From Prasinococcaceae sp. CCMP 1430 (Eukaryota; Prasinodermophyta; Palmophyllophyceae; Prasinococcales; Prasinococcaceae), in NCBI GenBank assembly GCA_013416795.1, contig RQSC01000125.1, positions 42,118-68,551 on the forward strand: a stretch of DNA of 26,434 nt, written 5' to 3'. The translations under genes and the position numbers were made by a program. Under the pieces are notes generated by a model that saw nothing but the letters and a program-made list of their open reading frames with translations, had not been told where the DNA came from and did no database searches. This document shows, one piece after another, positions 12,332 to 17,426 of the stretch (position 1 is the stretch's first letter; every line of letters begins with the position of its first letter).

Positions 12332-13172
12332 TCAGCGGTTCTTGTGCTTGTTCTGCGTGTGCTCCTCTCGCGCCTTCTTGATCTCGCGGTCGACGCGGAG
12401 CAGCTCCGTTGCGCGCGCGTACTTGCGCGGGTGGCGGCGCACGAGTGCCAGCAGGTCATTCACGTGCACCTTGCCCTCCTCGGCGCCGATCTCTGCCGCC
12501 TTCTGCGTCATCTCGAGGATGTACTCGATGCAAATCTCCTCCACCACGTCGACGGTCTCTTTGAGCGGATCGGCGTCGTCGCCATAGCCGTACATGATGC
12601 GCCGCACTGCGTGGGCAGGTGGGGTAGGGCGGGGAACGTGGCGCACGGTCAGTAGTGGGGGGCGGTTATGGCGCTTCGGAAGGAGCGCGCGGGGCGCCAG
12701 CGCGAGGAGGGCGCCCGGCGGTGCGTGTGGCGACTCGAAGCTGAGTTGGGGTGGCGCACGGGGAGAGCCATGATCACCGCAAGCTCGAGCTCCCGCGCTT
12801 TCATGTGCGCGCTCGCGCGGGCGGGCGGCGGCGCGCACAGGAGCTTCGGCCGCGCTGGGCGCAGCGCCACCACTCACAGTCCTCAGTGAATATCCCTCGC
12901 TTCTTCTTCAGCGCGAACTCCTCCCATCGCTTCTTCTCCGCCTCGGGATCGAGCGGCGCGTCCGCGGCTGCTGCGGCGCCGCCCGCCGCACCGCCCGCCG
13001 AGCGCTTGCCGGGGGAGGCGGCCACACGCTGCGCGCGCGGCGCACGCCGCGCCCCACCTGCGCGCGGCGCCCGCTGCGAGCCGCGGCCTGCCGAGTGATC
13101 CCTCGCTCCGACTCCTCCTCCTCCCCCCTCTGGCCGCTTCCCCGCCCGCACCTCCCCCCCCCCACCGCGCAT
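12332..13172 (-). CDS. TAF13: TFIID subunit TAF13
   Basis: TAF13 is a histone-fold subunit of the general transcription factor TFIID, pairing with TAF11. Exon 2 (12606-12332) reads LRRIMYGYGDDADPLKETVD, then CIEYILEMTQKAAEIG, VHVNDLLALVRRHPRKYARA and a basic end KNKHKNR-like. It follows the human TAF13 histone fold closely. Exon 1 ends KKKRGIFTED and joins by a 271-nt phase-1 intron (12877-12607, GTGAGT to ACGCAG), restoring the family pattern FTEDLRRIMYGYG. The only in-frame Met upstream is at 13172-13175. It overlaps the ATG of the opposite-strand zinc-knuckle gene and would add about 65 Gly/Arg/Ala-rich residues to a family that is usually about 125 residues long. The 5' end is therefore doubtful and another upstream exon is possible. 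The histone-fold identity is firm. Confidence 0.92.
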
Positions 13173-13173
13173 C

Positions 13174-13959
13174 ATGGAGATGCACCACAAGCTCCGCCGC
13201 GACAAGAGCTGGTCCATCCACGGCTGCAACACGTGCGGCCAGGAGGGCCACCAGGCGGCGAACTGCCCGAACGGCTCCAACGACTTCAAGGCTCTCGGCT
13301 TCGACTACCACGTCTACGAGAGCATCAAGGTGAGCGCCGCGAGCGCGCAGGGCCGGCGCTCGTGCGCTCGCTTCCTCGCTCGCGCACGCGCTCGCGCCCC
13401 GCGCGCGACCTGCTCACCAGCTGCGTGCGTGGCTGGCCTGCGCCCGAGCGACGACGGCTCGCCGCTGACACGCGCACATGCGTGGACTGCGCCAACGCGC
13501 TCGCGATTGTCCTGCGGCCATCGCGTCCCCGCTCTCGGGCGCGCTCTCGCATGGCTCGACGCTCGGTTGTCTCTCCCTCCTTTGCCTCTTGCGCTCGCGC
13601 CTGCGCAGCCAAAGCTGAAGGTCGACTTCGAGACGCTCGAGGCGCGAGCCAGGGCGTATGCGGCGGCGATGGGCAAGACAGACGACCCAGCCGTCGCGGC
13701 GCAGGCGGCCGCGGACGTGTTGCCCGCGGCGCTGGACGAGTCCAAGGGCGGGGGCTGGAAGTCGGACGTCGACTTCGCAACGGGGCGGCGCTACTGGTAC
13801 AACGAGCTCACGTGCGAGAGCCGCTGGCACCCACCGCAGCTCCAGCCGACGCAACCACAGCTGCTGCCCGTGCCAGGCGCTGCGCAGGTGCAGGCCGAGG
13901 CGGGCGCGGCCACCGCGGCCGCGGCGGCGCTCCCGCCGCCCGCGATGCCGCCCCCCGCG
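13174..13959 (+). CDS. Zinc-knuckle and WW-domain protein (3' end in gap)
   Basis: Exon 1 (13174-13329) starts MEMHHKLRRDKSWSIHG and contains one CCHC zinc knuckle, CNTCGQEGHQAANC (C-x2-C-x4-H-x4-C). A 279-nt phase-0 intron (GTGAGC to CTGCGCAG) leads to exon 2 at 13609. Exon 2 starts PKLKVDFETLEARARAYAA and holds a WW domain: Trp in GGGWKSD, then TGRRYWYNELTCESRWHPP. A Pro/Gln/Ala-rich linker runs into the sequencing gap. Zinc knuckles bind RNA and WW domains bind proline-rich partners. Both occur together in pre-mRNA splicing factors, so an RNA-processing role is a reasonable inference but is not shown. The C-terminus is unknown. It may continue past the gap. Confidence 0.8.
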
Positions 13960-14376
13960 NNNNNNNNNNNNNNNNNNNNNNNNNNNNNNNNNNNNNNNNN
14001 NNNNNNNNNNNNNNNNNNNNNNNNNNNNNNNNNNNNNNNNNNNNNNNNNNNNNNNNNNNNNNNNNNNNNNNNNNNNNNNNNNNNNNNNNNNNNNNNNNNN
14101 NNNNNNNNNNNNNNNNNNNNNNNNNNNNNNNNNNNNNNNNNNNNNNNNNNNNNNNNNNNNNNNNNNNNNNNNNNNNNNNNNNNNNNNNNNNNNNNNNNNN
14201 NNNNNNNNNNNNNNNNNNNNNNNNNNNNNNNNNNNNNNNNNNNNNNNNNNNNNNNNNNNNNNNNNNNNNNNNNNNNNNNNNNNNNNNNNNNNNNNNNNNN
14301 NNNNNNNNNNNNNNNNNNNNNNNNNNNNNNNNNNNNNNNNNNNNNNNNNNNNNNNNNNNNNNNNNNNNNNNNNNNN
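13960..14376. other. Sequencing gap of 417 N
   Basis: All bases are N. The gap removes the end of the zinc-knuckle/WW gene and the start of the glutamine-synthetase-like gene, or the middle of a single joined gene. Confidence 1.
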
Positions 14377-16507
14377 GGCGCGCTGCGCGCGCGGCGGCCG
14401 CCGCACAGCGCTCCGCAGAGGCGGCGTCTGCCGCGCGCGCGGCGCTCGCAGCGGCTGATGCTGAGCGCGACGAGCTGCGCGCTTGGCTCGGCGACGCCGC
14501 GTGCGGGACGCTCGGAGAGGTGCGCGCCGCTTGCGCTCGTCAGCGCCTGGCGCGCTGATGCGCAGGCGCCGCGCGACAGGCGCTGAATCGCTCGCCAGGG
14601 GCCTCGCCGGAGCGCTGACGGCGTCCTTGCGACAACCCGCTCACCCACCTCGCTCCACGACAGGGTCCCGCGGCTGCCGACGCCGACGGGCATGCCCATG
14701 CCCACGCGTACGCGCATGTTGCGCACGCGGGCGTCCCCATGCCCGACGGCGCGAACGTGCTCAAGATGATATGGCAGGATGCACTCGGCGCGCACCGCTG
14801 CGCCGCCCTGCCTGTCGCGCAGCTGACCGGCCTGGGCGTGGCAGACAGCCCTGGTGCACTGGTCGGCACGAGTGGTGCTGCCGCGGAGAGCATCGACGAC
14901 GGCGTCGCTGACGGCGCGTCTACAAGCGCGCGTGCCGAGTGCGCCCTGCGTGCCTTGCCGGTCCCGTCGCCATCGCCGATGCTCTGTCCGTGGGACCCTC
15001 GCGCTGCGCTGTGCTTTGCTCGCCTCGCGCGTGACGAGCCGAAGCTGCCGCATAGTGCGCTGTGTGCGCGCGCGGCACTGCGGCGCGTCGCCGAGGCACT
15101 CAGTGCCGAGCAGGTGCGTTTGTACAAACGCGCGTGGATCGGGCGCGCGCTCGCGCGACTGGTGCGTGCTCGCTTGGCGGGGGAAAACGCTGACACGGAT
15201 GGGCTGGCGCGCTCGCCTCGCAGGGCATACGGGTTCGAGTCGCCTTCGAGGCGGACTGCGCCTTCGACTCAACTCAACCATCGGCGGCGCACACGCGCAC
15301 CCATACGCGCGCCTCTGCGCATCTTTACTCCGCCGACAAGCTCTCGGACGCGTGGAACAAGGTACACCGCGCACAAGAGTGGATGCGCGAAGCGGGCTCG
15401 CCGCTCGCGAGCGTGAGTGCTTGTGGCGACGGTCGCGTGCGCCTCAGCGGCCTCGCCCTGCCGCCAATGGCCGCCGCCGATGCGTTTATGCTCTGCCGAG
15501 AGGCAATGGATGCGTCGTGTGCAGGCACACGGGCGGATGGGGCTCACGTCGGTGAGCGGGCATCGTTCGCAGGCTCCGAGCTGCGCATGCGCGTGACGCT
15601 GTGGGACGCTGGCCCCGCCGCAGAAGCCGGCGAGGGGCGCGCGACCGCGAGTGTGCTCGATCGCGCCCCGCGCAGTTCTGGCGACTCGATGCAGATTCGT
15701 GTGTCGCGCGCGCAAGGGACGGCCGGGTTTCCCGTGGCCGACGCCAAAACTGAGGGCACCGAGCCCAATGTCGAGGTCGAGCTATCGCGCACCGGCGAGA
15801 GCTTCGTTGCAGGCGTGCTCGACGCTTTGCCCACCCTCGCGGGCTTTGCCGGCCCGAGTACAACGCACGCCGCGTGGGGAGTGCGCACGGCGGGGGTCCC
15901 AGTTCGTGTTCTGCCGGCGGCCGCACGCGCTGACGGCGCTGACGCGGCCGGGGCGAACGGGCACGGGCCGCTCGCTGCTGCAGCTGCAGCCGCCGTGGAG
16001 GTTCGCATCGGCGAGAGCACTTGCAACGTGCACGCGGCACTTGCTGCCGTCCTTGCTGCCGGTGCACACGGCGTGCGCACGCAGGCCCAGCTTCCCGCGC
16101 CGTTCGTGCGCAGGCCCGCTCGCGCGAGCATTGAGCAGCGCGCGGCTGCCAGTGCGTGCGAGCTGCCGGCGAGCGCAAAGGCGTGCGCCGAGGCGCTGCG
16201 TCAGAAACTGAGGTGCGGGCGCTCGCGAGAGTGCTTTGCTCACCGCGTGCTTGGCGTTCGCGTGAGAGCGCGCGCCCGCGACGCAATTTGCGCGTGCAAG
16301 CTCGATCGTTCCGGCTGCGCAAAGATGCGCTGACATCGACGCTGTCGCCGTCGATCGCGCGCGCTCGAGCGCGCACGCCTGCATAGCTCGAGCGCGGAGG
16401 GCACTGCGGGGGCTGCCGTGTGCCGCGCTCTCGGCGCGGCGTATGTGGATATGCTAGCGACGTGCTGGGAGGATCGTGCCACGCGCAAGAAGGAAGGCCA
16501 AGCTTAA
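14377..16507 (+). CDS. Degenerate glutamine-synthetase-like protein (5' partial)
   Basis: Exons: before 14519, 14664-15113, 15224-16212 and 16387-16507. Introns are 144, 110 and 174 nt, with matching phases 0, 0 and 2. After an Ala-rich helix and an alternating His/Ala stretch, the protein follows the FluG/GlnA-type glutamine synthetase fold. The beta-grasp domain (NVLKMIWQDALGAHR, then MLCPWDPRAALCFARL) leads to IRVRVAFEADCAFD at the GFExEF site, ADKLSDAWNKVHRAQEWMRE, and ESFVAGVLDALPTLAGFAGPS. Then come HAAWGV, VEVRIGESTCNVHAALAAVL and ALGAAYVDMLATCWEDR. Catalytic positions are mostly lost. The HxHxS region reads RMRVT, the GQxE region reads GRVR, the NSYxRL segment after the PS is deleted, and the ENR motif is absent. 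This suggests a pseudoenzyme. The fold is recognised from the order of many weak motifs. Confidence 0.75.
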
Positions 16508-16764
16508 ATGCACGCGCGCGCGCATGTGAGGACACGCGCGTGCTGGCATCGGTGCGTTGGGTGTCGTTTTGACTACTGTACTGTATGTCTAATTGCGTCA
16601 GGTCGTGCTCGAACCTGCCCTCGCGTTGCCAGCGGTCGCGGACGCGCGCGCGTCTGATGCACGCGTGGCCGCTCGCAGGGCTGGCCGCTCTAGCGCACGG
16701 GCGCACCAGTGGCGTCCTCTCTGACGCGCAGACGCGCCTGTCAACGTCTGTCTGCCGCATATAC
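16508..16764. other. Convergent intergenic region
   Basis: This lies between the stop of the glutamine-synthetase-like gene at 16507 and the 3' end of the minus-strand gene at 16765. No gene is seen. It presumably contains two 3' untranslated regions. Confidence 0.45.
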
Positions 16765-17426
16765 CTACGCCGCATGGGGCACGGTTCTGAAGTTCCTCTG
16801 CTCGTTGGGGAGCTGCATGAACTCGAGGGCCTTTGAGGCACGTCGCTCAACCTTGCGCGCGCGCTCGGCTTCCTGCCCCAGCGTGCGCGAGTCCGCCACG
16901 GTCGCCTTCTCCGAGATGGAGCCCGCGCGCTCGCTGCGGCTCTGCTTGGGCTCAGGGGATGAAAAAACCTTCGAGAAGGACGTGCGCCTCAGCGCCTCCT
17001 GCGCCGTCGGCTCGTGGTAGCCCGGGCCCGGCTTGGGTGGGTTGCGGGCCGCCTCCTGGCGCGCGGCCTCGTTGGCCGCACGCTCGGCGTCCACCCTCAT
17101 CTTGTATGCGGCAGTCTTCTCGATGGTGTCGATCGCCGAGCGCTGCCTCTGCAGCTCCGCGGCGCGCGCGCTGTCCTTGGTGGCCTCTGAGATTGTGCCA
17201 TTCCGGCCGTCGTCGCGGCCCTCCTTGGCGGGTGCGCCGCCGAAGAGGCGCACGAACGCGTCGTGGCTGCGCGGCGCCGCGCGGCGCGGCGCGGCCAAGT
17301 CAGTGGGGGCTCAGCAGCCCGCGCCGCGCGCGCCCCGAGGCATTCCCCGCGCCTCGCGCCTGGCCTCTCTTCGCCCCGCGCCTCGCGCCTCGCCGCGCCC
17401 CTCGCGCGCCCGCCGCACCTGCCCAT
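16765..17426 (-). CDS. Small helical protein of unknown function, two exons
   Basis: The large exon (17266-16765) reads HDAFVRLFGGAPAKEG, then a long Ala/Arg/Glu helix (AAYKMRVDAERAANEAARQE), PPKPGPGYHEPTAQEALRR, and a Ser/Glu/Lys-rich end finishing RNFRTVPHAA. It has no ATG. A first coding exon of only eight bases (ATGGGCAG, 17426-17419) followed by GTGCGG joins across a 152-nt intron to the GCGCAG at 17267. This rebuilds the Ser codon and gives a 169-residue protein starting MGSHDAFVRLFGG. The Gly2 start could be myristoylated, but position 6 is Ala, so this is weak. No family is recognised. Confidence 0.6.

Follow-up and report, generated by a model that had tools for sequence, protein, structure and literature searches.

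A fast-evolving glutamine synthetase homologue, probably a pseudoenzyme of FluG/NodGS type, in the alga Prasinococcaceae sp. CCMP 1430

Is a glutamine synthetase (GS) gene whose active site has largely gone still a working gene, and if so, for what? This question is raised by a GS-like gene of the alga Prasinococcaceae sp. CCMP 1430, whose genome comprises 24.5 Mb in 145 contigs. The gene lies in a stretch of 26,434 nucleotides (nt; contig RQSC01000125.1, positions 42,118 to 68,551; G000:C39:42118-68551 in our numbering), the whole of which is called the window here. Three exons of the window join into one frame related to GS, with intron phases 0 then 2 and verified GT-AG junctions, and the product spliced from the first in-frame ATG (14739) is 494 residues long. 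Most of its catalytic residues are lost and the GS fold is still encoded, so the protein is probably a pseudoenzyme. We consider it fairly probable that it is a fast-evolving FluG/NodGS-type pseudoenzyme of the GS fold, and its gene has probably been kept for another role. Direct support comes from the sequence relation, the predicted GS fold, the loss of 7 of 11 catalytic residues, the in-frame splice signals, the recurrence of the losses in a database relative, and the lower rate of difference in exon 2 than in its neighboring intron.

A sequence-only reading of this locus had proposed a spliced protein of the GS family, and the searches bore this out. The protein matched PF00120 with an E value of 2.3e-14 and a score of 53.6 bits, where the family cut-off is 24, which places it in the superfamily; the match covers residues 330-478 of a 519-residue reading, that is, the C-terminal half. 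The best PDB chain match had an E value of 1.6e-7. The top NCBIfam match was gamma-glutamylputrescine synthetase NF045547 (9.4e-14), yet the window protein lies far under the cut-off of that family (51 bits versus 650) and has lost the catalytic columns. An hhalign comparison of the lone window protein sequence with 12 aligned GS proteins, itself not among them, matched residues 7-476 of the 494 at an E value of 2.8e-16. Pieces of the protein gave weaker matches (E 0.0018 for exon 1 alone and 0.0056 for the first part of exon 2), and exon 1 alone kept the register of the full-length alignment. In a shuffle test of six pieces, none of the 200 shuffles matched the observed score of any piece, the narrowest margin being that of the first part of exon 2 (26.2 versus a shuffle maximum of 25.0). 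A structure model of exon 2, which leans on the GS alignment, predicted a GS fold, with all 50 of the 50 matches listed belonging to the GS family.

Table 3 of PMC6478659 lists 12 residues, and 11 of them, placed by motif on the protein P0002 and read from the alignment, served as the catalytic columns; D53, which FluG likewise fails to conserve (PMC6478659), was left unscored. Three residues were kept (E134, R353, and E384), one was changed conservatively (D136), five were replaced (now A191, R198, R246, R248, and A348), and two, the glutamate-binding arginine and a flap residue, were deleted together with the flap. The metal, ATP, and glutamate residues that mark an active GS or gamma-glutamyl ligase are thus largely missing, 7 of the 11 being lost. 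The spliced protein carries VLKMIWQDALGAHR, EAD, CGDGRVRLS, RMRVT, GPSTTHAAWGV, RTA replacing ENR, and ALGAAYVDMLATCWEDR; all of the motif readings quoted by the sequence-only reading, including the deletion between GPS and HAAWGV and the missing ENR, were therefore found in the translation. Its statement that the active site is erased holds for most catalytic residues but goes too far, given the three that are kept and the conservative D136.

The window protein was placed in two trees of 21 and 20 rows, in which the only NodGS row was entered by hand. It grouped at 100/99 with three database GS proteins, P0002-P0004, and with the hand-entered NodGS row where that was included, on a very long branch. 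Its nearest kin therefore appear to be FluG/NodGS-like GS domains, with a position made unsure by the long branch. The start IWxDAxGxHRCxA is presumably common to the window protein and NodGS, as judged from the hand-entered row.

According to excerpts of PMC9909507 and PMC6478659, FluG/NodGS (GSI-like) proteins are reported to be without GS activity, are proposed to make other metabolites, and are linked to development and nitrogen signaling. For FluG in particular, it has been argued that the protein is not a GS but a gamma-glutamyl ligase, and alanine swaps at its predicted key residues abolished its function (PMC6478659, in part). FluG thus retains and needs its catalytic residues, whereas the window protein has lost most of them. 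FluG and NodGS combine an N-terminal amidohydrolase with a GS-type gamma-glutamyl ligase; no amidohydrolase was seen on the window gene, though a run of N adjoins its 5' side. In the genome, PF04909 (amidohydrolase) was found in two places, on contigs C75 and C143, neither of which is the contig of the GS-like gene (C39). The C75 locus (L007, 433-2958, minus strand) is a single open frame of 841 residues with an amidohydrolase (PF04909, 6.1e-39), followed by a domain that we take to be of the PhzF type.

Lengsin, a vertebrate pseudo-GS that the sequence-only reading had offered as a parallel, is described as an inactive dodecamer (PMC2667176, in part). The likeness is one of logic, a GS relative without catalysis, with the inactivity of the window protein deduced from its residues, and the trees place that protein nearest to the FluG/NodGS-like GS domains instead. 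Lengsin is further described, in the same excerpt of PMC2667176, as keeping conserved, functionally important GSI regions, whereas the window protein has lost most of these; the comparison was made by description rather than with the lengsin sequence. In the searched literature on GS, FluG/NodGS, lengsin, and pseudoenzymes, no algal pseudo-GS was found among the titles and abstract openings listed.

Evidence on whether the gene is maintained came from a database relative, P0001. This sequence aligns to 277 codons of exon 2 with three differences (the last codon straddles the splice site) and continues into the adjoining intron, where 6 of 57 residues differ and the frame changes. The rate of difference is about 10 times lower in the exon (p 0.001), which argues against a dead pseudogene. 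Fifteen positions were checked in P0001, among them each replaced catalytic site that it covers, and none differed; this sharing of every loss within its coverage argues against sequence error. From this one comparison, we read purifying selection on the gene as weak but real. The open frame runs through 494 codons with no stop; its own composition by codon position predicts about 5.3 stops (P of none 0.005), and that of nearby noncoding sequence predicts 10.1 (P 4e-5). Taken together, the signs of selection are modest.

Relatives were few. In a single-sequence search, P0001 was the sole match at E ≤0.001 among 7994 candidates scored, and when residues 155-355 were searched against 6121 candidates, P0001 was again the one match, even with E values as high as 10 allowed. 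A profile that included a plant row entered by hand gave 13 matches among 7994 candidates scored, P0001 included, and algal orthology was established for none of the 13. The genome search with the spliced protein gave three matches, all of them fragments of the GS-like gene itself.

Several observations weigh against a retained pseudoenzyme. The exon-2 fold model depends on the GS alignment; when exon 2 was folded from its single sequence, the predicted local distance difference test score was 42, no Foldseek match was found at E ≤0.001, and GS and GmaS rows were mixed with adenylyl cyclases and others at E values of 0.02-0.5. P0001 covers nothing of exon 1 and no residue before 179. The tree tool flagged the placement of the window protein as unsure, owing to a very long row of unusual composition, and no branch in either tree was longer than its own (2.71 and 2.86; the medians were 0.43 and 0.44). 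The 12 relatives share 43 invariant columns, of which the window protein keeps 3 of the 10 catalytic ones and 20 of the 33 others (p 0.15, not significant; the 33 include the initiator Met), and with near-invariant columns added the counts were 3 of 11 and 31 of 60 (p 0.19). Erosion specific to the catalytic columns is suggested by these counts, not shown. Finally, the G+C content at third codon positions (GC3) of the coding sequence was 0.75 (0.77, 0.74, and 0.70 in exons 1, 2, and 3), far below eight stretches of the genome chosen by family match (0.86-1.00: L001, 0.88; L002, 0.90; L003, 0.94; L004, 0.89; L006, 0.93; L007, 0.86; L008, 0.86; and L016, 1.00, with 32 codons only), of which L003 and L006 look like near copies and are hence not independent. 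The open reading frame list of the window had been prefiltered on GC3 >0.78 and was hence excluded as a control. The introns of the gene have GC contents of 0.70 and 0.68, close to its exon GC3. The claim of an intact codon bias therefore failed, GS paralogues being among the stretches compared.

Low GC3 and the longest branch are both compatible with weak constraint, and they lend weight to an alternative that we nevertheless hold to be unlikely: a FluG-type GS gene that has lost its enzyme role would be in decay, with little or no selection acting on it, and the rarity of stops at 70% GC, the approximate GC content of the window, would in part explain why its frame is still open. Such decay would also suit a loss pattern with no significant concentration in the active site, as well as the composition of the protein, which is 23% Ala with Ala-rich insertions, and long frames arise commonly by chance here. 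One example is a 500-residue open frame antisense to the GS-like gene (15486-16988, minus strand); the length of a frame counts for little at such a GC content. Against a relic stand the exon and intron differences from P0001, a probability of 0.005 or lower for a stop-free frame of this length, and splice sites and phases that are intact, as the sequence-only reading had noted. Its conclusion that the gene is not a decaying pseudogene is probably correct, and loses the support that it had drawn from codon bias.

If the gene is indeed a retained pseudoenzyme, the protein would be made and folded, perhaps assembling GS-like rings, two Mg ions would no longer be held, and phosphate would no longer be transferred. 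We infer a binding or regulatory role: the protein may bind a ligand or partner, as a nitrogen-signal or scaffold protein, and so resemble its FluG/NodGS kin, which are thought to work in development and nitrogen signaling, minus their chemistry. It is a rather improbable extension that the metal site has been rebuilt, with R198, R246, and R248 replacing three metal or phosphate contacts and forming, together with R353, E134, and E384, a metal-free anion pocket (for glutamate, 2-oxoglutarate, or a nucleotide), so that a dedicated nitrogen-status sensor would have arisen from a FluG-type ligase. The presence of arginine at three of six changed sites (binomial P 0.009) was a post hoc count and was set aside, and a His to Arg change needs one GC-raising base change.

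An enzyme of altered chemistry, in which E134, D136, E384, and R353 would hold one metal and the nucleotide and arginines would do the rest, is quite improbable. The three kept residues, the conservative D136, and the argument that FluG is a gamma-glutamyl ligase speak for it, and the loss of the other two glutamates at M-alpha, of the histidine at M-beta, of the arginine that binds glutamate, and of the flap, together with the alanine swaps that abolish FluG function, speaks against it. An error in the gene model or sequence, such that different splicing or frameshifts would bring the motifs back, has been largely refuted and is very improbable: the 5' part does adjoin the N run, but all changed motifs from residue 126 on lie within a single open exon, P0001 carries the same residues, and no HxExxxGQxE or HxHxS was found by eye in the other two frames of exon 2.

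The features of the gene are collected in Table 1. Its splice grammar, that is, the GCTGAC spacing and the phases, points to an intron at 14520-14663 and a preceding exon, so that position 14664, where the coordinates given by the sequence-only reading begin, follows a splice acceptor and may not be the start of the gene. An additional 5' exon beside the N run is likely; alternatively, translation begins at ATG 14739. The frame of the candidate upstream exon has a GC3 of 0.79, and its start would lie inside or beyond the N run. The window contains 24 copies of GCTGAC on its plus strand and 7 on its minus strand, and the motif lies 30-53 nt from the 3' end in the four introns examined; in the aldehyde dehydrogenase gene of the window, it was found in one of two phase-consistent introns, 39 nt from the intron end. 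GCTGAC may therefore serve this alga as a strong branch-site motif. A frame with zinc-knuckle (PF00098) and WW (PF00397) domains at 13099-13959 extends into the N run and could be a gene of its own; that it is joined to the GS-like gene is less likely.

Table 1. Positions in the window of the exons, introns, and catalytic sites of the GS-like gene
Feature	Positions	Strand	Basis or remark
Run of 417 N	13960..14376		Could conceal the 5' part of the GS-like gene, the end of its upstream neighbor, or both
Candidate upstream exon RAARAAAAAQRSAEAASAARAALAAADAERDELRAWLGDAACGTLGE, phase 0, donor GTGCGC	14379..14519	+	Frame and donor only, without homology support
Candidate intron, 144 nt, GCTGAC 45 nt from 3' end	14520..14663	+	Phase 0 on both sides
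Exon with N-terminal GS domain	14664..15113	+	hhalign, shuffle test; first in-frame ATG 14739
Intron, 110 nt, phase 0, GTGCGT...GCAG, GCTGAC 30 nt from 3' end	15114..15223	+	
Exon encoding the bulk of the GS catalytic-domain fold	15224..16212	+	Pfam, hhalign, shuffles, structure model
E134-A-D136 in place of GS ExE	15248..15256	+	E134 retained; D136 replaces the second E
A191 to R198	15419..15442	+	Replacing two M-alpha glutamates
R246 and R248	15584..15592	+	Replacing HxH (M-beta ligand, ATP contact)
Deletion site of the NSYxR...flap stretch	15854..15865	+	Glutamate-binding Arg and flap residue absent
A348 to R353	15890..15907	+	ENR arginine position to second ATP arginine (kept)
E384	15998..16000	+	M-beta ligand, kept
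Intron, 174 nt, phase 2, GCTGAC 53 nt from 3' end	16213..16386	+	In-frame TGA within
Last exon, C-terminal residues	16387..16507	+	Stop TAA 16505-16507

PF00120 was found in six places in the genome, which we read as one class-I GS, four GSIII-like genes (labeled by eye from their frames), and the window gene. The class-I GS (L001) belongs to the same family as the window protein (PF00120, 9.8e-70), has motifs that are intact by eye, and falls outside the tree group of the window protein. No PF03951 match was found in the genome at E 0.001, and plant-type GSII was not seen among the PF00120 places, where introns could hide one. With an intact-looking class-I GS and further GS genes, nitrogen assimilation need not rely on the window protein. 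Two of the GSIII-like loci, L003 (contig C133) and L006 (C21), share their first 45 residues, through either recent duplication or copying during assembly. The window also carries a frame for a chlorophyll a/b-binding protein (PF00504, 3e-25), and an exon of the RuBisCO small subunit was seen on contig C18. Because the green lineage is marked by a small-subunit gene in the nucleus, this exon would, if C18 is nuclear, make a green alga likely.

GSI-like signaling has been proposed to act through a product that is not yet identified in Aspergillus and Arabidopsis (PMC9909507, in part). Were the gene a relic, it would show how far a GS can drift under an open frame. If the fold has been kept without the chemistry, this algal relative would allow a binding or scaffold role to be told apart from the product hypothesis, and it would add a further case of a pseudo-GS beside lengsin.
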